A stretch of 64,000 bases of DNA. It comes from Hesseltinella vesiculosa. Lineage: Eukaryota > Mucoromycota > Mucoromycetes > Mucorales > Cunninghamellaceae. The notes beneath the pieces were generated by a model. It was not told the origin of the DNA, searched no databases, and saw only the letters and a list, made by a program, of their open reading frames with translations. The stretch covers positions 310,001 to 374,000 of the forward strand of contig MCGT01000003.1 of NCBI GenBank assembly GCA_002104935.1, written 5' to 3'. The translations under genes were made by a program, and so were the position numbers. Shown in pieces: positions 12,001 through 64,000 of the stretch (positions are counted from its first letter, which is position 1; the number at the start of each line of letters is the position of its first letter).

Positions 12001-14015
12001 GACGCTAGTCAAGGAGCTGGTGGATGCTTTAGCAGAAGGCACGCCCACTTGCAGGTCAGACACCATGGCCGACAATGACATTACAGAGTAGCGTTTGATT
12101 GAAGCCAGTGTTTGTTGCAGTTCACGGTGTTGTGATTCCGAGGCTTCGATTTGCTGCATCAGCGATTCTTGATCCTGCTCCGAGTCATCTTCCTGTGCAT
12201 CTGATGAGGAAGAGAGAGGGGGGGGGGAGTGAGCGGGGGCTGTATTTCTGGTTTATTTTTTTTTTTTTCATTACCATTGTTAGCAGAGGAGACGGCATGA
12301 TCGGCAAGTTCGAGCTTTTGGTTGAGCATGGAGATGTGCTCTTCCTGGAGGGCGATGCGCTTCTCAGCGGCTTCGACAAGCACATTCCAGCGGTCATGGT
12401 CTTCTTCGGCCTTGGCCAGTTTGGTTTCGAGGCTTTCGATGTATTGCTCGGTGGTAGTGTTGTGCTCTTGGAACTGCATGATTTTGTTCTTGAGGGAAGT
12501 GAGCACATCATGGTCTTCTGAGGCTTTTTCGGATGAGGTGGCGAGCTTGGTTTCCAATTCCATCACATAGCGTTCGGTGGATTGTTCCCGTTCGAGCATC
12601 TTGGCCAGGCGATCCTTGAGGGCATGAAGAGCATCTTGCTCGGACTGGCGCAGGGTGGTGAATTCGGTCATCTTGCGTTCTTGCTCCAGCAAGGCATCGT
12701 CGGAATGGGTCAGGGCGGCACGGGCAAGGGCCAGTTGGGATTCCAGGCCGGAGATGGATTTTTCATATTCTTCAATGACAGGCTCGACAAGCTGCTGGAA
12801 ATCCATGCTGCCGAGGGCAGAGTCCTGGGAGCCGTTGGACACGCGGCTGTCGTTTTGTTTATGTACAGGATCCAGGTCATCGACCGAGGTGCAGGCTGGC
12901 CAGGGTTTCTTTAGTTGGCTTCCGAGCTGAGATTCAACCCATTGGTTACGTTCACGGGTGACAATCAGTTCGTTTTGCAATTCCTCGATTTGGCGGCGGT
13001 AATCGGAGACCACATGGTGCATCTGGACGTCCACGTCTTCAGTGACGTGTTTGGCGCCGAGGTCGTCGGCACCGGCCGAGGACGTGCTGGTGGAGACTTT
13101 GCCGGGGGAAGAAGGACTGGGTGAAATGGGGTAGCATAGCGTGGGTGTTTCGGGGGAGGAGGCGGCGCTGTTGACGGAGCGCTGCCGTTGCGTGGGCGAG
13201 GTGGATTGATGGGTTCGGGTTTGCTGGGATTTCAGGCCACGGAGTTCGGTCTTGAGCTTGGTGATGAGCGAGCGTAGGTAGTCGGGGCTGTCGTTGGTCA
13301 TCCATTCCTCGGTTTCGTTGCGTTCGGCTTTGTTCTTGATGTTCCGGGCACGGTGGGCGTACTTGATGGTGTTGGCGGTCTCGGTCAGGTTGATTTCTGC
13401 AGGGCTGACACAGGCGATCATCAGGGTGGTGGCGTTGCCGCCGAGTGAGTCTTGCAGCAGGCGGGTGAGCTTAGAGTCACGGTAAGGTATGTGTTTTTTG
13501 GAGCTTGCCATGTTGGTGGTGTCCATGGCGAGGGCGGAGATGACGTTGCCAAGGGCCAGTAAGCCAGCATTGATGTTGATGCCTTCTTTGCGGCGATCGC
13601 CTTCGGCCGCCGTGCGCTTAAGACGTTCGGATCCGGCCAGATCGACAAAGTGGAACTTTGAGTGGGACACCATCCATTCGCCATCTTGATCGTCGTCGTC
13701 TGTGGGGCTTTGGGAGTCTTGGCGTTCCATTTGGCCAACCATGGCGCGGACATTGAGGCTGGAGCCACGGCGGTTGATCATGGAAGATTTGGAAGACACA
13801 GGCAGGGTAAGGTCGCGTTTGCTGTTACGACCTGTGGATTTGGACGAGGCGGCAAAAGGAACCCATTTTTCTTGTTTAAGGGTGACGGAGAAGATGGCGT
13901 GTGATCGGGACGATTTGGCGTTCATATCTGTAGATCCTGTTGCTCGGTTATCGGTTCCCATCTGCAGATACCTAATAATAAAGAGAGGGTTAGTCGATGA
14001 AAAGCTTGTTCAGGT

Positions 14016-25300: not shown

Positions 25301-25892
25301 GGGCGAGTATATTTACAAATGTGCCGTTGACGTTTGACAGCTGTCGAAATGGTATGGCGGTCTACATGCTGGGCAACTTTCTGTGAAAAAAAAAAAAAAA
25401 AAACGGCCAGACCGTCCCTATGAGGTATCGCCTTTACGGCAAAGCCGTCGCCCGATCCATTGATTGGTTTAATAGCTTCCAGTCGTCCGTGCTTATTCTC
25501 ATTAAACGATAGTATTCCATGGCATGTCACCTTACCCTTTCTGTTCGTGCATGCCTGGATCACAGACGATGCCGGGTGCCTTGCCGTGAAATGGTGAGTG
25601 CCGGAGCCGTTAACCCACTTTTTTTCTTTTTCTGCCTCTTATTCTATCACGTGAACGATGACAGGCAGTTGTCCTTTTTAAACGAGTGAAAACAGAGCAG
25701 AGATACATTCATCCCTTGGCTTTGTTTGACAAGACAGCATGATCAAGACCAGGAATCACTGGATCGAACGGCAGAAAAAAGTCCGCCTTTTTTTTACTCG
25801 CATTTTTTGTTGTTGTTCTCGTCTCCCTCGCTCTTTTCATTCTCACGTTATCGTTTTATATTTGGGATTGGCTAGTGAACATTTAAGACGAG
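22333..25892. other. 3.5-kb interval without an intact gene
   Basis: Only short interrupted frames. One stretch at about 23400-23560 (-) reads FSKKFQVGTSLDFTGS then AIVLAGKDGIRVLD, faintly like the start of WDR59-type proteins. A plus frame at 23768-24019 (83 codons, MFSPSKALKASVTRGMAK...) has no recognised match. Neither could be extended through plausible splices. The right end, from about 25620, is T-rich and probably contains the promoter of the F-box gene. Confidence 0.45.
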
Positions 25893-27935
25893 ATGGAGAG
25901 ACTGCCTGCTGAAATTCAATTACACATCATCGACTATCTGCTGGACACCAAGGACAAAATTGAATTGTCCTCTGTGAATCGACCGTTTTATCACTTGTTG
26001 TTTGACACTCCCCGCTGCTGGTCGCCATTGGATCTATCGCTGTACGCCAATCAAATCACAAACTCAATACTGCTGTCCATCTTGAGGTCAAGGGCATTGA
26101 CGATTGTCCCATCGCCACCACGATTGCATGGCTGGAACGACACCATGGACTCGCCTTACTCTGCTACTGATAACTCCCAAACAAACGCACCCCAAAGCTA
26201 TCGACATCAGCTTGAATTCATCAACATCAGCGGTTGCCATTTACTAACCAGTGAGGCTGTGATGACGTTGGTGTGTACGCTACCGTTTCTGAAGGGATTG
26301 ATCCTCAACCGGTACCCATCCATGTCAGCAGCTGACCCACTAGCCCGCCATCCTCGCCATTATCGTCGCACGCGGCTGACCATGATTGATATGCTGCGGG
26401 ACGACCTATACCAGTGCCGGCCCCGCCACGGGCTTGCATCCACCACCATGGACCTGTCCAAAAAACCGCTGTGCTGCCTTGCTATAGCTGACACCGTCCT
26501 GCGCCAGATCCTCCACCGTGTCCCGCTCTTGACCAGTCTGTCCTTGCAGCACCAGTCTCTTGGAGCCACCACGGTCCAGCAGTTGCCTCTGCTGCTACCA
26601 AACCTGTGTCATTTGGACATCTCCTCATGTGATATCGCCCTTTCTAGTCTGCAGTCGTTGCTGCGTCACATGGACGGCCGCCTCATCAGCTTGAAAATGC
26701 TCAACTTGGACCTGTCCAATCTCACCCTGCTGTGCCTGCAACTGCATGGTTCCAAATCGCTGCAAGTGCTTCATCTATCTTGCATCGATCCGCAATGGTT
26801 CCTGGGTGTCGTGCGCGTCGTCCAACTTTTGCCTCACCTCCACGATTTCCGTCTCACTCGACTCCGTCTGGGCAACATCGACCCTCTCTTGGCCGCTCTG
26901 GCATCACACCCCCACCTGGAACGTGTGGACCTCTCCCCCAAACTGGAACTGTACCCGAAAAACCTGTCACCATCTTACACCATTCTGACCGCTTCCTCAG
27001 CGCTGGGCACGATTGGCACCCAGGGCTTGGCTGGTCGGGGGCCGCCTGCCACAGCGACCTCCAGACCTTTCCGCGTCATGGCCAACATCCGACCGTCTTC
27101 ATCTTCCACCAACATGCCCGACTCACCCACCAACCAAACCTCTGGTAGCCATCGAGAAAAAACCAACAATGATACCACCTCTGCCAACTATACCCACCAA
27201 GCTACCGGTGCCTTGCCGCCTTCCACTGGGCTGGAGGCCACTGGCAACCAACGACGACCTGTGGCCGGCCATCTCTATCCGGCCCATCCACATTACCACC
27301 CGCACTCCCGTGCCCAGACATCGCATTACAACAATTACAGCCGGTACAACAACACCATGTTCACGCGGGCCGAGCACTCTCTGACGATGACGCCCTCCTC
27401 CTTGCTGCTGCTTGCTCCTTTGGCCGACCTGACCGAGCTGCGGCTTTGTTACCCCAGCATCGATGCGGCCAGTCTGACCCGGTTTTTCAAGACCACCACT
27501 GCTTCTCACCAGCTGAAGATCCTGGAACTGCGCCTCCGTCAAAAGCCGTCCCCACTCGACAATGACGATGACGAGTCGTCAGATTACTTGGATGGCCTTT
27601 CTTGTTTGGCGCAGCTGCATACGCTTTTGCTTTACCACGTGCCACTCCGGAGCTCCACTGTCGAGCACATCCTTGGCCTCGCCTGTTTGCAATCGCTGAC
27701 CCTGTATGACGGTGGCCCGTTGGGAAAGCTGCAGCCCTTCTTTTTACGACATTGGCTACTCGGCATCACCAGCCTTGCCATGGTGCGGATGGACCTTGTC
27801 CCGTTTTCACTCGATACTCTCACCGACCTGGTCATGGCCCCGATGCCATCCGAGCTCTCGCAAGACGCACAACGGCAATATGAAGGGGATGTCATGCTGC
27901 TGAAGCAAAACGGGCTCTGGCACTGGATCAATTAG
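25893..27935 (+). CDS. F-box protein with leucine-rich-repeat-like region, 680 aa
   Basis: Probable substrate adaptor of an SCF ubiquitin ligase. Intronless. The F-box is at residues 1-45: MERLPAEIQLHIIDYL, then KIELSSVNRPFYHLLF and the Trp of CWSPLDL. Several LRR-like segments follow, such as LEFINISGCHLLTSEAVMTL, LTSLSLQHQSLGATTVQQL, LCHLDISSCDIALSSLQSLL, LKMLNLDLSNLTLLCLQL and LQVLHLSCIDPQWF. A Pro/Ser/Thr/His-rich linker (about residues 385-490) separates these from more LRR-like units (LTELRLCYPSIDAASLTRF, LHTLLLYHVPL, LQSLTLYDGG). The substrate is unknown. An AATAAA signal lies 13 nt past the stop. Confidence 0.82.
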   Translation: MERLPAEIQLHIIDYLLDTKDKIELSSVNRPFYHLLFDTPRCWSPLDLSLYANQITNSILLSILRSRALTIVPSPPRLHGWNDTMDSPYSATDNSQTNAPQSYRHQLEFINISGCHLLTSEAVMTLVCTLPFLKGLILNRYPSMSAADPLARHPRHYRRTRLTMIDMLRDDLYQCRPRHGLASTTMDLSKKPLCCLAIADTVLRQILHRVPLLTSLSLQHQSLGATTVQQLPLLLPNLCHLDISSCDIALSSLQSLLRHMDGRLISLKMLNLDLSNLTLLCLQLHGSKSLQVLHLSCIDPQWFLGVVRVVQLLPHLHDFRLTRLRLGNIDPLLAALASHPHLERVDLSPKLELYPKNLSPSYTILTASSALGTIGTQGLAGRGPPATATSRPFRVMANIRPSSSSTNMPDSPTNQTSGSHREKTNNDTTSANYTHQATGALPPSTGLEATGNQRRPVAGHLYPAHPHYHPHSRAQTSHYNNYSRYNNTMFTRAEHSLTMTPSSLLLLAPLADLTELRLCYPSIDAASLTRFFKTTTASHQLKILELRLRQKPSPLDNDDDESSDYLDGLSCLAQLHTLLLYHVPLRSSTVEHILGLACLQSLTLYDGGPLGKLQPFFLRHWLLGITSLAMVRMDLVPFSLDTLTDLVMAPMPSELSQDAQRQYEGDVMLLKQNGLWHWIN

Positions 27936-40904: not shown

Positions 40905-42707
40905 ATGTCGACTGGCGAAGCTTTGCAAACGTATGTGCTCGAAACGTTGAACAAGGACAATGTTATTGAAAACACCAAAGACCTTAACAATGCCGATGGC
41001 CAACCTATCGAACAACTGACCTTGCTTGGTGCCCTGAACAGTCTCAAGTCCAAAGATGTAAGTGGAAGAACGACAGCAGCGAGGAACAATGCATTGACCT
41101 GTCAGCATCTGTGCCGTTTTTTTTTTTATTCTCTAGATGGTCGATTTCACCTTTATCGATCGTGAGGTGTGGTTTTTGACGGAAGAAGGCGAGCAAGTGG
41201 CTGCTCAGGGTAGTCATGAAGCTCGTGTTTTCGACCTCATTCCTTCTGGCGATGAAGGCATGACCATTGCCGATGTCCAAGTAAGCGTCCATCGGCCATG
41301 CACTGTTGATGCCATAGGACGATGACTAACATCTGTTTTAGGCCAAGTTGGGCGAGATTGCCAAGGTCGGTCAAGGCAAGGCGTTCAAGAACAAGTGGAT
41401 TTCGAAAAAGGGCGGCAACCTGGTACGACTGGTGGACACCATTGTTGACCAAACACAATCGGATCTTCAACAAATTCAAAAGCAAGGTGGCCACAGCGAC
41501 GCCAAGTTGTTGACAGATCTCAAGAAGCGCAAGTTGGCCGATAAACAGTACGCTCCCACTCGCCCGTAATCTCTCCTGACTTTTCCTTTGTCTTATAGAA
41601 AGCTGACCTCGTACCGCGTTACCAAGGGGTCGGAATTCGCTTTGGAAATCAAAAAGGAAGCCACCGACATCACCTACGAAATGCTGCAAACCGGTGAATG
41701 GAAGAACGCTTCTTTCAAGAAATACAACTTTGACGCCGTGGGGGTGCCTCCCACCGGTGGCCATCTCCACCCCTTGATGAAGGTGCGACAAGAGTTCCGT
41801 GAAATCTTCTTTGAAATGGGCTTTGAAGAAATGCCTACCAACTGCTTTGCTGAATCCAGCTTCTGGAATTTTGATGCCCTCTTCCAACCTCAACAACATC
41901 CTGCCCGTGACGCCCACGATACTTTCTTCCTAAAAGGTCTGTCGCTCGAACGAAAAAAGGAGGGGGTGGTCAACATGACTCACCCGCTGTTTTTTTTTAG
42001 ACCCTGCCACGACGGATCGCTTCCCTCGTGACTTGATGGAAAAGATTCGAGTGACACACGAAACGGGTGGTGACACTGGCTCGATCGGCTACAACTACAC
42101 TTGGAAGGAAGAAGATGCTGGCAAGATGCTCCTGCGTACACACACCACTGCCGTCAGTTCATATATGCTGTACAAGTTGGCAGAAAAGACCAAGGCTCAG
42201 GGCGCTTTCAAGCCTGCCAAGTACTTCTCGATCGATCGTGTGTTCCGCAATGAATCTGTCGATGCCACCCATTTGGCTGAATTCCATCAAATCGAAGGTG
42301 TGATTGCCGACAAGAATTTGACCTTGGGCGACCTGATCGGTTTCATGGACGTGTTCTTCAAGAAGATGGGCATGGACAAGATCCGCTTCAAGCCTACCTA
42401 CAATCCTTATACCGAGCCCTCGATGGAAATCTTCTCTTACCACGAAGGTTTGAAGAAATGGGTCGAAATCGGTAACTCGGGCATGTTCCGTCCTGAAATG
42501 TTACAACCTCTGGGTTTGCCTTCCGATGTGCGTGTCATTGCCTGGGGTCTCGGTCTCGAACGTCCCACCATGGTCAAATACGATATCTCCAATATCCGTG
42601 ACTTGTTGGGTCACAAGGTCAACATTGCTATGATCAAGGAATACCCTGTCTGTCGCTTGGATAAGAAGATGGGCAAGGAATTGGTCGGCTTGAGTAAAGA
42701 CGATTAG
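40905..42707 (+). CDS. FRS2: Cytosolic phenylalanyl-tRNA synthetase alpha subunit, 515 aa
   Basis: Catalytic subunit of the alpha2-beta2 enzyme that charges tRNA-Phe. Exons: 40905-41057, 41137-41280, 41342-41547, 41599-41936, 42001-42707; 516 codons with stop. The N-terminal DNA/tRNA-binding helical part has [16 protein letters not shown] and [14 protein letters not shown]. The class II catalytic core has [40 protein letters not shown] (motif 1 region), [71 protein letters not shown] (motif 2) and [20 protein letters not shown] (motif 3). All are as in eukaryotic FARSA. AATAAA at 42803-42808 is the probable polyadenylation signal. Confidence 0.96.
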
Positions 42708-46046: not shown

Positions 46047-47644
46047 ATGGGCAACTCGGCATCCACCGAGCAAATGGCTTCCAACCAACTAAATAGACAA
46101 AACAGCAAATCCTCTAAAGAAATGACACACACCGACTTTGCATCCTTGTCCCTCGAAGAAGCAAACAAGCCCACGCATCCAGTTGGCCAACAGCATACCA
46201 ACATCGATCTCACCACGCCATCCACAATAGCTGCCGCGCCATCCCCAACCGTCGTCGCTACCAGCACCCCCATTGTCACCCACTTGCCTGCCAACACGCC
46301 CACCCATGCCACCTCTCTGTTTTCGTCCAGTGCTCAACATGGCTGGACCTCATCTACCTCAACGGCGACGTCATCGTCACCACGACCCGTTCCCGGCAAG
46401 TCCGGTTGGGTATCCAGCACAGGTGCCAGCAGCCCTTGGTTCAGCGGCTCCTACTCATCCTCGACATCGTCCTCATTGCAACATCCGCCATCTTCTCTGA
46501 CCCAACCACCCCATCATGGGCCGACGCCGGTCGTGACCCAGCGACCACACCGTACGTCCATCAGTGGGCCCTATTATCGCGCTCGTGGCCATAGTGTCAA
46601 CCAGCAACAAGAACCCACCGAGGACGATATCCTTGCCTACAACCCATCCTCTACATCCCAGTACCCACATGCCACCTTTCCTGCTGTCCAACCCTCTCCT
46701 ACCACCTCGTCCTCTGCCTCTCATCCTCCCCGGATACAGCTGCCATCGCCTTCCATCCTGTCCTTCTCGCCCACCACTGCCAGTAAAATCGATACCTCTT
46801 CCTCGTCTGTTCTTTCTTCGCCTGTGGCGCCAAGCGTCGCCAATGGTAAGTGACAAAAGACGGTATCCTACCTGGTTGTCTCACCCCTCTCTTTACAGGT
46901 GTGCCCACCATCATCACTTGGTCTCAAGGTGGTAAAAATGTCTATGTCACTGGCACATTTAACGGTTGGAAACAAAAAATCAAATTGGTCAAGAGGTAAA
47001 CAGAGATAAAAAAAAATGGGAGAGAGTCTCATTTTTCCGCAGCTCGCACGATTTCAGCGCCGTGTTAGATTTACCACACGGCACCCATCGCTTAAAGTTC
47101 ATTGTGGACGATGAGTGGAAATGTTCAAACGATATGGAAACCGCCACCGACCCGGACGGCAACCTGGTGAACTACTTGCAAGTGATGGATGAGGACGACA
47201 TGGAAGAGGAGCTTCGTGAAGAAGAACTAGCCATGGCCCAGCGTAGAAACTCGGTCAACGAAAATGACTATGGCACTGAGATTCCCGCCGAGCTTTTGAC
47301 GTACGCTCAGCTGGCCCAAGGCACAGCCGGTGATCTGGACCCCCAGCAACGCCAGGCCGCACTGGATTGGGAACGCAAACTGCCCCAGCTTCCGGCTTTA
47401 CCACCTCATTTGGAAAAGGTCATGATGAATGCCAGCACCGTTAGCGAAGAAGACAACTCGGTTCTGCCAGTGCCGAACCATGTCACCCTCAACCACCTGT
47501 ATGCCTGTTCGATCAAAGATCAAGTCATGGCCCTGGCCACCACCTCACGCTATCGGAAAAAGGTAACGCCCAAACCAAAACGACCCAAGCTCACCCTCCT
47601 CTTTTTCTTAGTATGTCACTACCATGTATTTCCGACCTGTTTAA
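46047..47644 (+). CDS. SIP2: AMPK/SNF1 kinase beta subunit (Sip2/Gal83-like), 482 aa
   Basis: Scaffold subunit of the SNF1/AMPK heterotrimer, which senses energy and carbon status. Exons: 46047-46845, 46899-46995, 47043-47562, 47612-47644; 483 codons with stop. The N-terminus MGNSASTEQ is a canonical myristoylation signal, as in other beta subunits. About 240 disordered Ser/Thr/Pro residues follow, then the glycogen-binding/CBM48 domain: VPTIITWSQGGKNVYVTGTF, NGWKQKIKLVKRSSHDFSAV, LDLPHGTHRLKFIVDDEWKC and the NLVNYLQV strand. The ASC/AMPKBI domain has EIPAELLT, LPQLPALPPHLEKVMMN, PVPNHVTLNHLYACSIKDQV and MALATTSRYRKKYVTTMYFR. The last exon supplies only ten residues (YVTTMYFRPV), essential for the family's C-terminus. 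Confidence 0.95.
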
Positions 47645-48931
47645 TCACCAGCCATTGCCCCAATTTACATTCTTTCACACCCTTGCACTTTTTTATCGCT
47701 GCTTTGAATAATAATAAACCATAAAAAAAGAACATTTCCTCGATCGTTTGTCTTTTTGAGCCAAGAATCTATCACCGACAATTCAAAAGCCTTCTCCAAA
47801 AAAAGGGGGGGAGTGGGCTTTGACCAGATCGCCTGTGCACCTGGGTCATCAGAGATGTTAAAACGAAACGCAAGCGTTGGCTGGACGGCCTACATCCATC
47901 GGCCAGATTTTTTCAATACACCCAAACCAAGGCAAAATGACAGCTCGATCTGATAGCCTTTCCTTGGCCAAATTCAACGTCCGTGCAGGACCCTCCATTC
48001 CAGCCTGGTGCAAGCAGGGCCGCTCAAGCCACCCTTTGCAAACTGTGCCTCTACTGGTCACCTCAAAATCAGGTGGTATGAGGTCAGCCAATCAAAACCC
48101 GAAGTCGCTGACAAAGTCAAAAAACCAATCAAAATCATTCGTTCGATTGAACAGACTCCCAGCTTACGGCGTTTGGCAAACATCCCATTTTTTCATTTTT
48201 CAGCATCAGTGGAGCCAAGGCAAAAAGAGGAGGCCCAATGGGAGCCGATAGGACACTGCCAGACGACGCCAAGCAGACGGATGCCCTGAAAGAAAGGAGC
48301 AATAAGAAAGGGATGGAGGGCTGTGCACGATGAGCGGAGTAGGAAACAACTGGTCCTGTCCTTCGCTGCTGCCACGCCCCTGATCACTTTCCAAGCAATG
48401 GACAGTTTAAAAGCCAAGAAAATAAAAGATATCAAAATGGATGATAAACTAATTTATGCATGTTTATAGTTTAAATCTTGAAAAGCAGAAATACCGTTTT
48501 TTTTTTTAATTTAATGAGTGGCTTTATGTGTGACAATTGCGTCAATGAGGTCAGTGGAGCCAGTGGAGCGAAAAGGATCCACGTTGTGCAACCATGCTGT
48601 TTGAAAGAGTTTGGAACGGATTTGCACATGTGTGACAAGGTGCGTTTTTTTTTTTGGGGGGGGGGGAAGAAGACAAAAAGGCGGAACTAAAACTTTACAC
48701 AAATGGAGGAGTTGGTTCTTGGCAATTGCCCAAACGTGCTTCAGGACCCAATTTATTGCCTTTCGAAAAAACGTGGAGGATGCCAAATGCATAAAACGAT
48801 TTTTTATTTTTGACGAAAGAAATGGGAATACAAAGAGGGAAAAAAAAAAAAAAAAAAAAGTCGGCTATAATACAATGACGAGAGGGATAAATGGGAAAAA
48901 CGGAAGATGTAAAAAACGTGCTCAGCGACGT
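47645..48931. other. Intergenic, 1.3 kb, no gene seen
   Basis: Contains AATAAA at 47713-47718 (end of the AMPK beta transcript) and poly-A/poly-T runs. No coherent coding signal on either strand; short frames carry no motif. Confidence 0.5.
47713..47718 (+). terminator. Polyadenylation signal AATAAA of the AMPK beta gene
   Basis: AATAAA 68 nt after the TAA stop. Confidence 0.5.
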
Positions 48932-51131: not shown

Positions 51132-52025
51132 TCAGTTGGGCTTGCGCCAGGCTAGTTGGGCCTGATTGACCTTTTCACGGAAGTTGGTGATGACTTGGGC
51201 AGGGTCTTGGGCTTTGAAGATGCCAGTGCCGGCAACAATCACATTGGCCCCAGCCTCGGCAGACACGTCAATGGTGTCGAGCGCAAGTCCGCCGTCTACT
51301 TCAATGTCCAGGTTTGGATACAGCTTGCGCAGCTGCTCAACCTTGGGCAGGCATTGGGCCATAAATCGCTGGCCACCAAATCCTGGTTCGACCGTCATCA
51401 CCAAAATCATGTCGACTTGCTCGGCCACTTCACCAAGCACGGCTTCAACAGGTGTATTAGGCTTCACCGCCACACCCGCTTGCATACCAGCCGCATGGAT
51501 CTGTTTGATCAGACCCACAGGGTCGTTGGTGGCTTCAATATGGAAGGTATACATTTGGCCGCCCGCCTTGGCAATGTCATCCACCCATTGTGAAGGGTTA
51601 GACACCATCATGTGGCAATCTAGGTGTTCCCGTCAAACAGGTCAGCTTACTTTCCTTTGCCTCCTTTTGCATTACCAAAATAAGCTTCGGTGTGAGGGCG
51701 AAGTGCTTGAATGATAGGCGCACCAAAGGTGATGTTGGGGACAAAGTGACTAATAAAAAAATGAGCGACTCACTCGACTTTCTTAAAACCTTACCCATCC
51801 ATGACATCTAACATAATCACAATGGATACAGAGTAAAAGAAAAGAAAAAAGTTATCAAACAAATCCATGGGATGCAATAAAAACCAGTAACGAGGTCGAG
51901 CAGACGTCGTTTGATTTACCTAAATGGAGCCAGTCGGCCCCATTCTTGTGCATACGCTTGGCCTCAACAGCCAAGTTGGCAAAGTCAGACGACAGCATCG
52001 ATGGTGAGATCTTGGCTTCGGGCAT
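51132..52025 (-). CDS. RPE1: Ribulose-phosphate 3-epimerase, 226 aa
   Basis: Interconverts ribulose-5-phosphate and xylulose-5-phosphate in the pentose phosphate pathway. Exons: 52025-51920, 51807-51795 (13 nt), 51749-51676, 51619-51132; 227 codons with stop. The TIM-barrel landmarks are intact: [34 protein letters not shown] (metal and catalytic Asp in DVMDG, His in the GHFVPN part), [20 protein letters not shown] (metal His), [58 protein letters not shown] (catalytic Asp in EVDGG) and [12 protein letters not shown]. The active-site DVMDG is assembled across three exons, the middle one only 13 nt long. Divergent from MZT1 with 422 bp between start codons. Confidence 0.96.
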
Positions 52026-54541: not shown

Positions 54542-55059
54542 CGTCACCTCAGCAGCAACAAAAAAAAAAGAAAGAAAAAAGGGCGTCGTCGTTGCGGGGT
54601 GAAGACCAAAAAGGATGTTCCCCTGAGCCTCCTTTCAAGAGCGTTTGCCGACGAGGACACCTGGGAAAAAAAAAGTCAATGAGTCAGAACCATTTGTGTT
54701 TGATACGACACTTTCTGGCAAATCTATATCTTGACACAACGAGGTGAGGATAGAAAGACAACGGAGACAAAGCCAATAGACCACATTCAAGCTTTTTCAC
54801 CATGCATATTTCCAGAGCCTGGATTCTCTTGATTGACTTGAGGAAAGAGATTTGGCACTTGAAGAATATCACTGCGTTTCTGCTAAAGGACAAACGCTTT
54901 CCGCCCTTGCTTTCAAAAAAACACTTCATTCCGATCAGAGGGTCATTGCCCACTCTCAAACCCTCTTTTTTTCCTTGTCGATTCAAAACTCATCACTTCG
55001 CTCGTTTTTTTATTATTTTTATTTATTTCACCTTGTACTTTCGTGCTGATGGGTAAGCG

Positions 55060-56160
55060 TTGTGCTCAGCAATGGTCGGATCGAAAACCTTTGCTAAGCA
55101 ATAAAGATGAAACGGAGGCAAAGGAGATCCTCTTGAATTCCAACGTCACATCAAGGCGAAACTGTTGAATGCCAATGACCATAGCAAGACCAAGATGGAG
55201 CTGGACAATGTTTTACGGCTACCAAAGGTCAACTGAAGTATATTGATGATGCCCGTCACTGGAAGCCCGGTTCCTTTATCGCAAAATACAGCAAGAAGAA
55301 CACGTTCATGCAAGTCTGGAAAAGCTCGATGAATGAGTCATTTGCATCATTGTCCTCTGAAATATTAGCCGAAGCCATGGGTAACTGCATCAAAAGAGCA
55401 AGCGTCCTGCTCTACTGCGTTCCCCTTGTCCACCGACCCATCCTCTTCCTCCACTCCACCTACCACCAAGATAAAAGAAGAGATCCTTGGGGTTCACAAG
55501 AGCGTGACATCGATCCTGGCAAGTGATTTCCAATCTGACGCCGGGTCCAGCACTGAGAAATGAGCTCTCCGGGTTATTCAAGACAGCGATGAGTGAAGTG
55601 ACCAATTACTGGCAAGGAATGACATTTTTAGTGCAAGCGACTTTGCTAAAATTTGCTACGACTCAGAGTCCTGATTGGTACAGTACAATGGTATGATGGA
55701 TATCAGACCAGCTGATGGACTCACCTTATTTTTTGAGTCAGGTCTGAGTCGCCAGAAATGACGTTTTTTTTGCGCTTCCACCCCCTACTCGTGCGTTGAC
55801 GGCCGATTTATTCTCAATTGACCACATACAATACCTCTTCTTATCAACAACCTTCGGCAAGACCCAGGCGTCCACAACAGCCAACCACCCAGTGTGGTCC
55901 TATCTGACGTGGATGTTACAACTCGTCGTCCTGACCTTGGCATCATGACCAGCGACCTGCGATCCATCTACAACAACAAGTTGGAAACCAACATTCAAAA
56001 CCTTCTTTCTGGGAAATCACTCAAGACCATGCTACAATATCTGCTGTGCCTGCTCCTGTGACTTTGGCTTGACCCACCGAGCGAGAACAACGCCACCATG
56101 ACTGCCGCCAAGGCTGCAAATATCGAGGTAAAGCTGCCCATCACCCTGCAGTCCAACAAG
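55060..56160 (+). pseudogene. Decayed unidentified coding region upstream of Fanzor
   Basis: Plus-strand fragments in changing frames: QQWSDRKPLLSNKDETEAKE near 55070, NELSGLFKTAMSEVTNYWQG then LVQATLLKFATTQ near 55560-55660, VVLSDVDVTTRRPDLGIMTS and DLRSIYNNKLETNIQNLLSG at about 55890-56020, and NNATMTAAKAANIEVKLPIT at about 56085-56150. Each looks like real protein rather than chance, and together they suggest one inactivated gene. Family not recognised. Confidence 0.35.
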
Positions 56161-56459
56161 TAAATGGACCAATGCTTTTCCTTTTTTTAAAAAAAAAAAA
56201 ATAGGCAGCCGAAGCGAACGAGGTACATGAGTTGAAGCAAAGTGGATTAGATAAAGTACGAGGAACTCAGATTGTATGGCCAAGGCAGGTTGGGATTTAC
56301 TATCACGTACGTGTATGGCAATTGCTTTAGCTCTTCAGAGTACTATCAATGCTACGCTCATTAAAATTATGTGTGCTTCTCTTTGGGAACGAGTTTATTT
56401 TTTGATACTTTGTTTACGGATGATCTAGAAAATAAAAGGGTGAGGTTTATACAGGTATG

Positions 56460-56771
56460 TCATGCGTGATATTGGGTTTGGAAGTTACCTCGCAAATAAA
56501 GCAAGTATTCATCTGTGGGATGATTCCCCAAGGCATCAAGTAACATGTCCTGAGCAGCATCGTTCTTGTTATCGTTTTTTTCTAGCTCGATGGCTAATAT
56601 CCAAACGTGTGGTTCCATGGGGAAATTTTCAATCAACGACCGTAATACAAAGCGTTGTTGTTTGATAGGAAGATGGTGAAGGTTGTCAAGCATATCTCTG
56701 ATGTGCTCTGCACCTGCAGAAATACCAGGAAGAGGTGGCCGAACAGATGGGTAGTTGGTTTGTAACATCAA
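56460..56771 (-). pseudogene. Truncated 5' gene fragment divergent from Fanzor (unidentified)
   Basis: Minus-strand frame starting MMLQTNYPSVRPPLPGISAG, then EHIRDMLDNLHHLPIKQQRF, VLRSLIENFPMEPHVWILAI and DMLLDALGNHPTDEYLLYLR, followed by a good donor (G|GTAACT at about 56490) and a nearby acceptor (TTTTCTAG at about 56428) after which the frame stops within a few codons. The helical, HAT/TPR-like sequence looks like the start of a larger protein that is missing. Either a very small protein (~97 aa) or a gene cut short. Not identified. Confidence 0.4.
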
Positions 56772-56894
56772 GAAAAGTTGTTTGAAGGAGAAAAAAAAAA
56801 TGCAGGACCAGCGGAAGGAAAGGCGTCGCGCTTTTTTTTTTTCTCTTTTTTCGTTTTTCTTTTATTTCTTCATTGCTGCCTTATTATTGTATTC
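56772..56894. promoter_or_regulatory. Short divergent region upstream of Fanzor
   Basis: Only 123 bp between the opposing starts, including a T-rich tract (56831-56875) directly before the Fanzor ATG. No individual element is identifiable. Confidence 0.35.
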
Positions 56895-59800
56895 ATGGAA
56901 CAACAACATCCACCGTTAGGAGCCAACAAAAAGATCATGCAATGCTGGTTTTTGATCCTTATCAATGTACCGACAGCAACGCTGAATGACTTGACACGTG
57001 ATGAAGACCGCTTCGCTACAACTCATCTACTGACACGCCAGCAAGCCATGATCCTGCTAACGTGGGTGCGTAAGCACCGTGGTGGTAATATGCAATGAGA
57101 GCACAACGTTGGCATTGGCATTGACTTTGTTTTTATAACTAGGATTACGTGTGTGCGAGGCTTGTGGCTCCCCGCATCATCAAACAAGCCGATCTCGACA
57201 ATGTCCATTTTATATCCCTCCATCACATCGTAAGTGCATCTTCTTTTCAGCTTTTGCATGGCTATTTAACTTTTATTTTTGATAGCGATCGTTGCCACAA
57301 CAAGCTCTGATAGTGACATGATGAACGAGATCAACGTTCTCCAGCGTCTTGGCGATGAGCAGTTGCGGGAGGCAGCACAAAATCAACACCCGCCTGAAAC
57401 ATGCCCAACCTGCGGCCTTCCTGGCCACTCACGATCATCCAACCCTGCCTGCCCATTCAGAGCGCTAAGCAAGAAGCAATTCATGTCATCACGACTGCCT
57501 GCCTCTGAAGATTACACTCGCGTCCGTAGTTTTGATTCCATTGTCCGACCAGCCTATCGCAACGTCCTGATCACCAACATCAAGGCCAAGTCCGATTATC
57601 TGCGTAGGACATTGACACGGCTGCAGCTTTTCCTGCTGGATTATGCCACCCATCACTCCGATCAAGTCCCGCCTTTTTTGTTTACACAGAACGGCCTTTA
57701 CTTGATGACTCAATTGACACGTGGTCACTTGAATGCATTCCTGGAACGGTCCGATGAACGTGTGCCGGGCACTGTGCTAACTCACTGGCATGAATTCAAC
57801 CAAGATTTGCTGAACGTCGCTACATATGACACCCCTGGTCATACCGCCGAGCTGTCCATGGCCTGTAAGCTTCAGGCTACTGCAAACCGTAATCACATTA
57901 CGGAGAACTTTGAAGGTCGAATCAAGAAGTTTGTGAAATTTCGCTTTGCTGTTGACGGTGAGGTAGGAAGCAGGCAGAAAAAAAAAGCGACATGTCCAAA
58001 TTTGGCTGACCTCCATACTTTTATTTTTCTCTTTGTAGGAACCTCCTTCCAGAATCCTCGGTATCATCAAGGATTACGTCTACCAAACCTTTGCCATGAT
58101 TGCCCGAAATATGGAGCCCCTACCTGCGGAAATACCAGAACGACATAGATCTCTTACGGTGCTGGTTTTGAACGAACTATGGGCGATGAAACCTCCACAG
58201 TTACCAACGATTACCCAAGAGACAATGCGTGCTGACCCAGGTCGGCATCTACCAATTTTACGAGCAATACTCGACGTGTATGATCATTACCGTGCAACAA
58301 TTGGTGATGAAAATGATATCGAAGTGCCCTCATTCACTCTTTTGCCGCTTCCTTCGTCCAAACCTCGGTTCGTGGACATCACACCTGAAAACATCACACA
58401 ACTCACAGGCTCTCGGCAATCACCAAACGACCAAGTGACAAGATTGCCACCATTTTTGCGCAAGCTACACATCTTTTGGCAAGTGTTTGCTTTTGAAAAG
58501 CTTGGATACCCCTGGTAAATGGATAGATGCAGGAGGGAAAATGTGGAAAATAAAACGAGCAAGAGGTCTAACCTTTTTTTTTTTTTTTTTAGCTTTGAAT
58601 CACTCCGCAGGGCATGGATTCGTGGTCATTTTTTTTCTGGTGTGATGCGAACGGATGGAGTGCAACTGCACGTTGTCTTTTCCCGCCTACCCCATGGCCC
58701 TGATCCACCTGTCATTCACACACCCGACCTGGCCAACCAAGACGTTGCTGGCTTCACTCTTTGTGGTATTGATCCTGGTCGGCGCGCAGTTATGACCACC
58801 TCCTTTGGGCGAGGCCATGAACCTCATGCGGTACGCCGAATGTCCATGAAAGAGTATTGCACCACCAGCAAGGAGTCGCATATTCAACGAGATATGAATC
58901 GTCGCAAGATCCAGCCCCTGCCATCGGTGCCTGAGCAAGTGCATGCCTACGAGACTATGGCGGACATTGAGGCGAATACGCCCATGACCAAAACCGCCGA
59001 TCCCGTTGCCATTCGCCAGACCGTCCAACACAAACTCATATGCTCCGAGTCAACCTTTGCCTTTTACAACACAGATCATGCGATCTCCAACTTCGAATTA
59101 GTCAAAGGCAAGCAACGAGCAATTGCCACTGCTGCCAACTTCATCACTACTGGATCTCGCAAGTACACCCGACGCTGTCGAGACAAGCGAAAGACAAGGA
59201 AAAATCGGAAGCAACGAAAGCGACAGGCACAACGAAGAAGGCATGCTCGGTTGCTGCAAATCAAGGACGAGTACAGCAACACGAAGTCTCGAATGGATAA
59301 TCTGGGGCGCTTGCGCGAACAACATGATGAGCTGATGGACCAGATGATGCGCATAACCTTGGACCATCCACTTGGTGTGCACCCTGAAACTCGACCCGAA
59401 GAAGACCAGCACCGATTTGCTCGGCAAATGAACCATGCACTAGATCAATATGGTACAGCTCATGATCTTGCTACAGCTGCCATAAACAGCGAAATTGAAG
59501 CATTGGAACAACATCTTCTGACACTCCAACAAAAATACCTCGACCCCCCTCAGCAACCAACGTAATACAAAAAATGGCCTATTTGCGTTATCTCATGTTC
59601 CTTTTCTATGTATAATCTAGCCGCATACGAGCCAGCAAGTTACCGCATCACGGCTCCCAAGAGACAGTGGATGGCCTGCCACTGATCTCATTCGGTGATG
59701 CCATGGTTGGTCGAGATGCCCAACATTTTCGTGGGCACGCAGTGGGCAGAACGAACAACGTCAGACAGCACTTGATCGAACGACAGCACCGAGCGTTGTG

Positions 59801-60196
59801 CATGGTTGCCCACACCAACGAGTTCTGGACCAGCCAGGTAAGAACGTCAAAAAATGAGCGTGGTGGGCATTTCTAATTTGCTGATCCAAACTAGAACTGC
59901 AGCACCTGTGGTGACCAACTGTCTCCCGTGCGCACGCAAGATCAGTCGTCTATCTTTGCTTTGAAGTTCTGCACCACTTGCCAAACGGTGTGGGATCGAG
60001 ACGTGTCCGCCGCTGCCAACATGTTCTGGATCCTTGACGAAACCATCAGCAACGGCGCTCGGCCGCTTGCGTTGACCCGCCCTCCTGAACACCACCAACC
60101 TCGCCCCACTCTCCCCGCCATTACCCTCTGGCATTCATGTAAGTGCTTGGGGCGTATAATATCTGAGCATCTCTCATACTTTTTTATATTGTAGGA
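56895..60196 (+). CDS. Fanzor protein: eukaryotic TnpB-like RNA-guided nuclease, ~948 aa
   Basis: Predicted programmable nuclease of the Fanzor/TnpB family, mobile-element-borne relatives of Cas12. Exons: 56895-57069, 57143-57229, 57286-57962, 58039-58514, 58593-59561, 59621-59837, 59895-60138, and 60195-60196, which only completes the TGA; phases agree throughout. Two zinc knuckles with identical spacing (C-x2-C-x4-H-x7-C) at residues about 63-79 (CEACGSPHHQTSRSRQC) and 127-143 (CPTCGLPGHSRSSNPAC). RuvC-I: GFTLCGIDPGRRAVMTT, Asp near 532. A long basic helical insert follows (RRCRDKRKTRKNRKQRKRQA). RuvC-II region: LPLISFGDAMVGRD near 814-826. Zinc ribbon: CSTCG (869) and CTTCQ (893). RuvC-III: WDRDVSAAANMF near 900-911. 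No stop or frameshift; all motifs intact. If the last intron is retained the protein gains about 17 residues. Guide RNA and element ends are not established. Confidence 0.85.
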
Positions 60197-60343
60197 AAAC
60201 GAAAAAAAAAAACTACCATCAATAGATGGCAACGTCAGCGTTTTTTTTTTTTTGGTTGATGTTTGAAGTATATTTACAGGTAAGATTGCAAAAAAAAAAA
60301 AAAAAAAAGTCATATTCTCACCACTTTCCTCAATTTCTCATGT

Positions 60344-60497
60344 CTTTGCGACATTTGCAATCCTTTGGCATCTTCCCAATTTATCGTTATTGGTAAGTTA
60401 AATTCTATTCGCCATCATATGCTAAACTTATCCTTCACATTTCCATGTTTAATAGCTCTTTTTGCGACATTTGCATTCCTATCACTGCGACATTTTT
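60344..60497 (+). repeat. Short direct repeats just downstream of Fanzor
   Basis: TTTGCGACATTTGCA occurs at 60345-60359 and again at 60461-60475 (in a CTTTTTGCGACATTTGCA context), each followed by a near-identical WTCCT; a shorter copy, TGCGACATTT, is at 60486-60495. They lie 150-300 nt past the Fanzor stop. The same TTGCGACATT core appears once at about 36825. Confidence 0.55.
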
Positions 60498-60526
60498 CGT
60501 GAAAAGTGTAATGGTTGTGACACAAA

Positions 60527-60532
60527 AATAAA
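60527..60532 (+). terminator. Possible polyadenylation signal of Fanzor
   Basis: AATAAA about 330 nt after the stop, following the direct repeats. If used, the repeats would be part of the transcript. Confidence 0.3.
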
Positions 60533-61819: not shown

Positions 61820-64000
61820 CTTTGTCTCCCTGGGTGGCTTTATTGTAAGTCGAGAATAGAGTGCAAGGGTTCACAAAAAATAAGCTTTGTAACAAGGGTG
61901 TGAGCTCACTTTTTTTTTTCTTTTTTTTTTTTTTTTTTAGTATGGGTAAAAAAAGGGGACACCAACAGTGGAGAGAGGACTTACCAAAAAGAAACTGTTT
62001 ATAGATTCGATAATTCTATTATTGAAGCGTACGTAGCAGCTCCTGAATTTACAAGAAACTATCATCTGGACCCGGACAGTGGAGCTGGGATTGCCGCGGT
62101 TTCAGTAACGCTGGGCGCAGGATTCCTTGCCTCCTTTGTAAGCTATCCCGGGACTCGACGGTTCACGTGTACTGATGCATCCCACCTAATATTTATGATA
62201 GATGTCTGGCTTTGTTGCCGATCGACTGGTAAGCATTTTGTAGCTTAGGGAGTTGGCCTCACCTTTCCTTTGACAGGGTCGTAAATTTCTCTTTTATGTT
62301 GCTGGCATTCTAAACGTGGTTGGCAGCATCATCCAATGCACTGCTCCCAATTTGGCTGCCTTTTTGTGTGGGCGTGTCATTACCGGCTTGGGCCTTGGGT
62401 AAGGACGAAGCTGCTGGGACGGGGTGAAGCTCACTCACTTTTTTTCTTCTAGTACTTTTAGCATGCTTGTGCCGCTTTGTAAGAGCAGCGATGCAAGGGG
62501 ACGATCACCAGCAACGACTGACCATCTTAAAATTAGACCAAAGCGAGATTGCACGACCAGAAAACCGAGGCCGACTGATTACCCTGTACCAAGTTGGCGT
62601 GACGCTTGGCATTCTGGTCGGATTCTGGATATACTACGGTGTCATGATGACAAACCCGTTCGCAACTTGGAAAACGTTGCTGGCACTACAGCTTGTGCCT
62701 AGCGGCATCTTGATCCTTGGTCTGCACCTGATTCCGGAAAGTCCTCGCTGGCTGATCTATCGCAACCGCTACAATGAAGCTTTACGGATCATGGCGCTGC
62801 TGCGGAGCGAAGGGGATAAAGATGACCTTGATTTGCAGATGGAATTCACCGGTGTGCGACAAGATGTTTGGTTTGATAAGCATTATACCCAAAAATCCTT
62901 CATGGGCCTCTGGTCAGCAGGCATCGAAAACAACCGCATTCGAACCCTGCTTGGTATGGGTATCCATGTGGGCACTCAGATCTCTGGCTCCAATGTGTTT
63001 ATGTACGTTTTTCTAAAAAAAAAAAAAAAAAAAAAAAAGGTGAAGCTCAACCTCTTGTTCTTTAGATTTTACCTGCCTGATATCGCCTCTGCCTCAGGAA
63101 TTGTTGATCACGGCAAGGCTCTGTTCTTTGGCTCTGGGATTACTGGAATCATTGGGTTTCTTGGCACTTTTCCATGTTTTCTCTTTGTAAGCAGGCTTTT
63201 TTTTTTTTGAGGGGGTTTGTTTGGAAGATGGCATTGATCTCTTTTTATTTTTAGATTGATCGCTGGCCTCGACGCCGTGTGCTTGTGTTTGGAGCGTTGG
63301 CCATGGCTGTGTGCATGCTGTTGATCGGGATTTTATCAGGGCTGTACGATGGTGACTTGCGATCAAGCACACTTCACCTGATGGCCGATTCCGCGTTTGA
63401 ATTCATGTCTAGCAACAACATCAAAGCCACCTATGCCCAGTATGCTCTTGTGTGTGTCTATCTCTGCTGTTTTGCTTTGTCTTGGGGTCCCACAGGATGG
63501 ATTTGTACGTAGCCAGAGCAGTGACCGAAAATAGATATCCGACTTACTCTTTTTCTGATAGATCCTGCAGAAATCTATCCTCAGATGATCCGAGCCAATG
63601 CCATGGGCGTGACCACTGCCACAAGCTATGCATCGAATTTGTTGATGACCCTTGTCGCCCCTTTTATGTTTACTAGCATGAAATTCGGCGTGTATCTATT
63701 TTTCGGCTGCATGTGCTTGCTCATGGCACTCGTGGTGCACGTGTTCTATCCGGAAACAAAGGTAAGGACTGAGGTAGCCGGACGAGTCACTAATATTTTC
63801 GTGTCGTTAGGGCCAATCCTTGGAAGAAGTGAATCTGATATTCTCAGGTGCGCTGATCGACCAACGACCAGGAGCACACCATCCAGCCACCGCAGCCGAG
63901 GCCTTGTTGCGTCTCGAGCAGGCTCAATTCCGCGAAAAACGGGATCGCCTGGAACGCCAACTACACGACCATGAACATGACCTGGCGGATGCACCGACAA
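61820..64000 (+). CDS. MFS sugar porter (5' end unresolved, runs off right edge)
   Basis: Twelve-helix major facilitator of the sugar porter family, plasma membrane. Exons read: 61820-61844, 61941-61945 (5 nt), 62005-62137, 62202-62228, 62277-62398, 62453-62478, 62537-63002, 63066-63186, 63255-63504, 63562-63761, 63811 to the edge. Joined sequence: FVSLGGFIYGFDNSIIEAYV (helix 1 motif), SGFVADRLGRKFLFYVAGIL (loop 2-3 signature), GRVITGLGLGTFSMLVPLYQ, SEIARPENRGRLITLYQVGV (PESPR-type motifs), LIPESPRWLIYRNR, IDRWPRRRVLVFG, LCCFALSWGPTGWIYPAEIY and HVFYPETKGQSLEEVNLIF. All phases agree. The sequence before 61820 has an in-frame stop and a likely acceptor (CTGTAG), so an initial exon lies upstream but was not found. 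The visible C-terminal tail is hydrophilic. Substrate is not predictable. Confidence 0.85.

Follow-up and report, generated by a model that had tools for sequence, protein, structure and literature searches.

The window analysed here, a stretch of 64,000 nucleotides (nt) from contig MCGT01000003.1 of the fungus Hesseltinella vesiculosa, contains at positions 56895 to 60196 of the forward strand an intron-rich gene for a Fanzor1 protein, carried by a repeat element that ends shortly downstream of it (Table 1). The reading frame of this gene is open, its product bears the Fanzor fingerprint, the element is present in multiple copies with a strongly conserved right end, and the copies record past purifying selection. 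We consider it very probable that this is a spliced and intact Fanzor1 gene on a multi-copy H. vesiculosa element, and that its product would be guided by RNA, cut DNA adjacent to TTTA and so help to restore the element. The protein part of this interpretation is well supported and the RNA part moderately so.

A DNA search of the H. vesiculosa genome (27.05 Mb in 85 contigs) gave 50 matches, which we have grouped ourselves. Subfamily A comprises five loci at 97–100% identity (the window copy, L010, L011, L012 and L019, the last of which is cut by a contig end), and subfamily B comprises twelve loci at 86–92% (L013–L018 and L020–L025); more distant relatives lie on contigs C33, C32, C64, C17 and C16. 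Three copies, those of the window, L010 and L012, are intact and full-length. At the protein level, at least 46 matches to the TNB domain were found in the genome at an E-value of 0.001.

The sequence-only reading had proposed eight exons with agreeing phases and no internal stop, and this structure was borne out. The joined frame of 953 codons runs without an internal stop through seven coding exons (56895–60138) and is completed by two bases at 60195–60196; all seven introns are of the GT-AG type and measure 56 to 78 nt each. The other full-length, near-identical copies (L010, L011 and L012) retain the ATG and every splice site, and they show no insertion or deletion in 2860 coding bases, despite gaps in their introns and 3' tails. 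Furthermore, paralogs with 40–66% protein identity match in blocks whose borders are the exon borders, and the joins between exons 1, 2 and 3 are kept in the predicted H. vesiculosa proteins P0002 (43%) and P0004 (87%). A gene-finding script recovered the end of exon 1 and exons 2–7 with identical ends; because the script rewards length, it overextended the gene on both sides. A chance open frame was considered and rejected, as the exon borders of the paralogs and the substitution ratios described below are contrary to it.

The gene is already predicted publicly, but not as a Fanzor under the names shown. The top match in our protein search was the NCBI hypothetical protein DM01DRAFT_1122431 (P0001), from the same locus, which carries the UniRef name Cas12f1-like TNB domain. 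Of its 868 residues, 850 are residues 104–953 of our 953-residue model; its start lies within exon 3, and it treats intron 7 as coding sequence, gaining 18 residues, which makes that intron the least certain of the seven. No paper text pairing 'Hesseltinella vesiculosa' with 'Fanzor' was found in a search that left supplements aside, and published Fanzor tables may list the gene. A protein search with the single sequence (E 0.001) returned three proteins among 5170 candidates, and one with an alignment (E 0.01) returned five among the best 7997 candidates, all from H. vesiculosa. Within the limits of a word-based search, the group to which the window protein belongs therefore looks like a divergent clade. 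A viral origin was set aside after a scan of viral contigs, in which 151 pattern matches yielded no relatives by tblastn.

The identification of the protein as a Fanzor had rested on the order of four motifs (GIDPGRR, FGDAM, a four-Cys zinc ribbon and RuvC-III), all of which are present, and it was upheld by several further lines of evidence. First, the Pfam family PF07282 matches residues 848–915 with an E-value of 1.7e-7 and 31.7 bits, above its cut-off of 26.3. Second, the published Fanzor fingerprint consists of DPG in RuvC-I and a glutamate (Ealt) six residues upstream of the zinc finger (PMC10711439), and the window protein has both: D537-P538-G539, which is the same in the window copy, L010, L011 and L012, and E867, separated by six residues from C874, the first cysteine of the ribbon. 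The ribbon (C874, C877, C898 and C901) is followed by R907-D908, the RD of RuvC-III. The three acids D537, E867 and D908 sit on exons 5, 6 and 7, respectively, and together with the four ribbon cysteines they are retained in all four full-length A copies. Third, T497-D498-G499 aligns with the TDG or SDG of other Fanzor1s; a TDG motif in the WED domain is a Fanzor1 feature (PMC10711439), and the WED assignment in our protein is made by analogy. The claim that FGDAM marks the RuvC-II region was only partly sustained. It is a conserved Fanzor motif, but we rejected it as the source of the RuvC-II acid because its counterpart in alignments with other Fanzor1s is the GDG or GNG.FG motif; that acid is probably E867, which stands at the place of Ealt.

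Profile comparisons point the same way. A clade profile built from three H. vesiculosa sequences matched one complete Fanzor1, P0008, with a probability of 99.3% (E 1.1e-20), and a five-sequence profile matched a seven-sequence Fanzor1 profile, which includes a Parasitella member, with a probability of 100% (E 1.8e-50); one member of the five-sequence set is a more distant Fanzor from this genome, so that the set does not wholly represent the clade of the window protein. When the seven-sequence Fanzor1 profile was in turn compared with the PDB, SpuFz1 (8gkh, 4.3e-9) and GtFz1 (9cer, 1.4e-5) headed 26 sequences, the remainder of which were mostly TnpB and Cas12 proteins; PpFz1 was not among the 26.

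Several observations weigh against a Fanzor1 assignment. A PDB search with the window protein alone gave no significant match, the three-sequence profile reached GtFz1 at just E 0.32, behind unrelated coiled coils, and the best relevant matches of the five-sequence profile were LaTranC (0.0067) and a TnpB (0.15). Similarly, the joined protein matches NCBIfam TnpB models with E-values down to 8.4e-5, but these matches score below the models' own cut-offs. The motif published for Fanzor and TnpB in 2013, D-X(125,275)-[TS][TS]-x-x-C4-X(5,50)-RD (PMC3627910), fits in the order of its elements and in its last spacing (5), but 332 residues lie between D537 and T870, which exceeds the 125–275 given there as an observed range.

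The protein also has an insertion: 155 residues lie between Y668 and FGDAM, against about 33 at that place in P0008. The insertion is visible against both P0008 and the second Fanzor of a composite element described below. In addition, two CxxC...H...C motifs resembling zinc knuckles occur at residues 68–84 and 132–148. These two features might suggest that the Fanzor fold has been kept and reused, for example for DNA binding without cutting, and the N-terminal motifs are indeed large and the insertion long. We regard such reuse as highly improbable: none of the catalytic acids or ribbon cysteines is lost from the four full-length A copies, the element has a conserved right end, and neither feature is peculiar to this protein. 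Long inserts are found at the same place in L001, L003 and L007, which are other Fanzor1s of this genome, and zinc-knuckle motifs like these are carried by P0008 and, in its N-terminal part, by the second Fanzor of the composite element; we considered the knuckles as a novelty and set this aside on account of P0008. Catalytic activity and RNA guidance of the window protein are inferred.

The sequence-only reading had also suggested that the frame is under selection, and this stands for the history of the lineage. Ratios of non-synonymous to synonymous substitution (Ka/Ks; Nei-Gojobori counts, in pairs that are not independent) were 0.30, 0.23 and 0.34 for the window gene against L010, L011 and L012, 0.44–0.58 among these three and 0.25–0.34 for the window gene against the twelve B loci, compared with 1.56, 0.78, 0.85 and 1.91 in the four B–B pairs tested. 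Amino-acid changes between the window gene and L010, L011 and L012 were fewer than expected under neutrality (binomial P 0.0042, 0.0001 and 0.0016, assuming that 76.5% of changes are non-synonymous). Selection thus preserved the frame in the A lineage, whereas in B it was lost. Eleven of the twelve B loci have a frame-breaking indel or stop in the aligned part, and the twelfth, L023, of which 543 coding bases are seen, has a 12-base gap only.

These same data bear on the possibility that the gene is a true Fanzor1 that no longer functions, a passenger, amplified recently, that still has an open frame only because its copies are young. The decay of the B loci would fit this, as would three features of subfamily A that count against an intact, working system: L011 has a premature stop at residue 362; L019, which shows no substitution against the window in the 474 codons seen, nevertheless carries a one-base deletion at 57767, which may be genuine or may result from misassembly close to the contig end; and the window copy lacks its left terminus. 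We find a defunct passenger rather unlikely, since the low Ka/Ks ratios against the three full-length sisters, the deficit of amino-acid changes and the lack of indels in coding sequence whose introns and tails are gapped are not what neutral drift would leave. Purifying selection may nevertheless belong to the past of the lineage and not to the window copy itself; the suggestion of selection holds against the decayed-subfamily pairs and is weakened by the deletion in the closest sister. An intact gene remains the reading that we prefer.

The B copies differ from the window gene in structure as well. In those that reach far enough, similarity to the window gene breaks at the place matching 60035 (60031 in L018). 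In L013, the sole B locus read through, a different Fanzor gene follows the break, and the right end is homologous to that of the window copy. The downstream sequence of L013 is common to eight B loci: L014, L015, L016, L022, L024 and L025 share it directly, L018 shares it in pieces and L017 shares it up to the end of the locus, before the junction. All six B loci whose alignment spans the place (L013–L017 and L022) have lost the same 17 bases, and with them the D and G codons of TDG. The composite element itself (L013 with L042 and L057, C12:457812-469000) consists of a truncated, decayed copy followed by the second, different Fanzor, and it has apparently multiplied as a unit. Elsewhere, L026–L038 fall at four places (C4:313720, C12:507126, C12:515230 and C23:591599) with two identical internal deletions that abut exactly (57782/57952 and 58294/59182), suggesting that a deletion derivative has multiplied. 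Ten copies (L010, L014, L016, L017, L019, L020 and L022–L025) lie at contig ends or at most about 1.2 kb from them; either the repeats have broken the assembly, or the location is subtelomeric.

The borders of the element are clear on the right. Homology between the window copy and other loci runs from 54739 to about 60510; past this point, the flanks of the right ends read are unrelated. Sister elements extend about 70 base pairs (bp) further to the left and start with TTTACAG, a stretch that is absent from the window copy; a 23-base piece of the sister left end found no match in the window with up to three mismatches allowed. Among 24 left-end matches, 17 junctions were read (the window copy and L011 lack a left terminus, and C18, C26:12465, C62, C78 and C67 fall outside the count), and TTTACA is present in 14 of them, with variants in L018, C37 and C23:846. 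At the right, all 17 ends read finish with TA, next to 16 distinct flanks of which one begins with AA; left out of these counts are the partial matches L071 and L072, the C32 and C64 elements, which diverge before the end, and the C16 element, which stops short of it. TA follows TT at 15 of the 17 left junctions, and such a TA is indistinguishable from the ends of the element itself. In four elements for which both flanks are available (L012, L013, L015, and L018 paired with L064), inspection by eye revealed no duplication longer than TA. The 8-base word TGACACAA occurs at the left breakpoint of the window copy (54732–54739) and again 8 nt past its right end (60518–60525).

The conserved TT outside the left TA, which has no counterpart on the right, recalls the elements of SpuFz1, in which a conserved CA precedes the left repeat and the target-adjacent motif (TAM) is CATA (PMC10432273); the motifs of SpuFz1 and GtFz1 are worded in another order in PMC11423790. 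This analogy suggests TTTA as the predicted target motif, although the TT could equally belong to the element. No transposase was recognised in the elements read, by eye on L041 and L013, and no family search was made. A Tc1/mariner element was considered in view of the TA at all 17 right ends; no mariner transposase was recognised by eye, and the element is not filed as mariner.

The right end is where a guide (omega) RNA would be expected, and it is conserved more strongly than the exons, as expected for such an RNA. The last ~130 nt of the element are 90% identical in the C33 element, 92% in C32 and 89%, over a shorter piece, in C64, although the aligned exon pieces of these elements share only 64–65% DNA identity and the tail farther upstream is only 73–74% identical in C33 and C64. 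The B right ends that were read are 77–79% identical to that of the window copy. Within this tail lies a candidate intron, the sole match to a strict intron pattern on both strands of the window. Its signature is retained in the A, C33, C32 (F2) and B right ends aligned, where it ends 55–58 nt before the right end (with ends set at GTGTA). Two other right-end classes, the L003 and L002 families, have GTGAGT...branch...TAG in a similar position: five copies of the former were read (L003, L004, L005, L006 and L008), and in L003 the signature ends 56 nt before the right end; in the one copy read of the latter it ends 50 nt before the right end, which was placed at the point where eight of nine other copies cease to be homologous. 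GGAAA.ACAGTA is common to the L002 and L003 ends; these may be related, in which case there would be two classes instead of three. No such layout was found in L001 and L007, copies whose right ends lack a set position. A relaxed signature 48–60 nt from a random point of the window has a frequency of 0.0045 (579 of 127600), a figure to be read with the fact that the pattern was chosen post hoc: the branch point was relaxed to CT[AG]A after the stricter CT[AG]A[CT] had failed for the window, though it passed for L002 and L003.

It is conceivable, if doubtful, that a conserved spliceosomal intron in the 3' untranslated region separates the coding region from the guide RNA, the mature guide RNA being the last exon (50–58 nt) plus flank. 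We find this idea attractive but unproven, and it was formed after the data had been seen. The 75 nt of the PpFz1 RNA (PMC11423790) probably include the guide, as in the 90 nt given for SpuFz1, and our terminal 55 nt plus a guide of 15–20 nt would come close in size. The presumed source of the guide is the flank, and with 18 nt (the first 13 nt of the flank and the last 5 nt of the element, up to three mismatches) we found no second exact site; matches with three mismatches were not commoner than for a reversed control (23 versus 32). The word 'intron' is absent from the main texts of PMC10432273 and PMC10711439.

Other features of the right end are less favourable to a guide RNA. The consensus fold has one 6-bp stem at -3.8 kcal/mol, which is weak; Rfam gave no match within the conserved tail at E-values up to 1 (four weak matches overall, none above its gathering score); and in the C16 relative the tail is 73% identical (60202–60417) and ends before the right end. 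Repeated TGCGACATT-like words near the right end resemble binding sites. Binding sites for a transposase and recent exchange between elements might then be all that the conservation reflects, with no guide RNA and an intron signature that arose by chance, as the weak fold and the failure of the window signature on the stricter branch-point pattern would allow. We think this explanation possible but unlikely, since the signature, a further 50–58 nt and then the right end recur in three right-end classes at a spacing that is rare at random, with the caution on pattern choice given above, and since the same place encodes the guide RNA in SpuFz1 and others (PMC10432273).

Most likely, then, the element is an ordinary Fanzor1 system, with a spliced message, an RNA-guided nuclease and a guide taken from the right flank. 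The protein would bind a transcript of the element's right end, in which the last ~55 nt would form the scaffold and the adjoining flanking DNA would supply the guide. The nuclease would cut matching double-stranded DNA beside TTTA, that is, the empty site left by an element that has moved, and repair of the cut would restore the element or copy it back. Such cutting of empty sites, followed by copying back of the element, is the role proposed for the Fanzor family. Movement itself probably needs a transposase supplied elsewhere, because none was recognised in the elements read. The window copy, without a left terminus, may be immobile while still supplying nuclease and guide.

Table 1. Features of the window and intron-like signatures of two related loci (positions in L002 and L003 are those of the loci)
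Feature	Position	Strand	Remarks
Fanzor-bearing repeat element	54739..60510	+	Lacks its left terminus but retains an intact right one; ends ...AAAAGTGTA
Degraded 5' fragment of another multi-copy gene	54967..56189	+	About 80–83% DNA identity in most pieces
Fanzor exon 1	56895..57084	+	ATG at 56895; P0004 keeps both start and join, P0002 the join
Fanzor exon 2	57143..57229	+	First CxxC...H...C zinc-knuckle-like motif (57154-57204)
Fanzor exon 3	57286..57962	+	Second zinc-knuckle-like motif (57402-57452); REC-like region begins (domain name by family analogy)
Fanzor exon 4	58039..58514	+	REC/WED-like region (by family analogy)
Fanzor exon 5	58593..59561	+	TDG motif 58651-58659; RuvC-I D537 58771-58773; long insertion begins after Y668 (59164-59166)
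Fanzor exon 6	59621..59837	+	FGDAM from 59691; probable alternative RuvC-II glutamate E867 59820-59822
Fanzor exon 7	59895..60138	+	C4 zinc ribbon 59898-59981; RuvC-III D908 60000-60002
Fanzor exon 8	60195..60196	+	Completes the TGA stop (last two bases); of all joins the least certain
Conserved right-end tail, candidate guide (omega) RNA locus	60382..60510	+	Conservation in C33, C32 and C64 elements
Candidate intron GTAAGT...GCTAAAC...AATAG (intron-like signature of the window)	60393..60455	+	Splice/branch pattern in sequence
Intron-like signature of L002	2007-2075		Sequence pattern
Intron-like signature of L003	1965-2027		Sequence pattern
Terminal segment, 55 nt, candidate guide-RNA scaffold	60456..60510	+	Size comparable with 75-nt PpFz1 RNA
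Flank, presumed source of guide sequence	60511..60530	+	16 distinct flanks among 17 right ends
Kinesin (host-type gene)	12162-14009
F-box (host-type gene)	25887-27932
tRNA synthetase class II core (host-type gene)	41979-42704
AMPK-beta (host-type gene)	46963-47721
Ribulose-phosphate epimerase (host-type gene)	51135-51632
Sugar transporter (host-type gene)	62428-63207

The surroundings of the gene had been described as full of decayed genes, a description that holds only in part. Directly upstream lies the degraded 5' part of a different gene, a fragment common to elements on C85, C33, C18, C1, C34, C7 and C2; the C85 copy of that gene (L041) is Fanzor-like by eye only, with GTDYG in place of GxDPG. 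Against this, six of ten long open reading frames (ORFs) submitted to a Pfam scan, chosen from the 61 listed in the window, match host-type families.

We conclude that the gene is a new, divergent Fanzor1, with a possibly new way of making its guide RNA. In this one genome, intact copies of a Fanzor occur alongside decayed ones, different Fanzors are united in a single element, and the right ends have clear borders. The genome could serve to test element-level selection on Fanzors, the production of guide RNA in an intron-rich host, and the prediction of target motifs, here TTTA, from insertion sites. Should the intron ahead of the guide RNA prove real, one transcript would yield both message and guide by a eukaryotic route, and splicing could decide whether that transcript becomes message or guide RNA.

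Several known systems allow comparison. SpuFz1 of Spizellomyces punctatus (PDB 8gkh) shares the Fanzor1 layout and belongs to a multi-copy fungal element with a conserved right-end region, which encodes the guide RNA, beside variable flanks, and with two conserved bases outside the left repeat (PMC10432273). It differs in having a single ORF in a locus of about 2.1 kb, whereas the window gene has seven introns in or at the end of its coding region, two N-terminal zinc-knuckle-like motifs, an insertion in RuvC and a guide RNA that is a candidate. The Fanzor1 elements of Mucor, Rhizopus and Phycomyces (MCi-2, MCi-4, MCi-5, ROr-4 and PBl-3) are likewise multi-copy and come from related fungi; the 5' parts of some are fused or variable, and several lack a transposase (PMC3627910). 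However, their target-site duplications are 6–12 bp, and some carry Harbinger or partial Crypton transposase genes (PMC3627910), whereas nothing longer than TA was seen in four H. vesiculosa elements with both flanks available, and no transposase was recognised by eye in those read. Parasitella parasitica, the source of PpFz1, is a Mucorales fungus. PpFz1 resembles our protein in having an insertion inside the RuvC domain, which in PpFz1 is of ~100 residues and binds cyclophilin, and in its short RNA (PMC11423790). PpFz1 is unlisted among the PDB matches of our Fanzor1 profile, and its TAM is ATN (PMC11423790), compared with the TTTA predicted for the window element.

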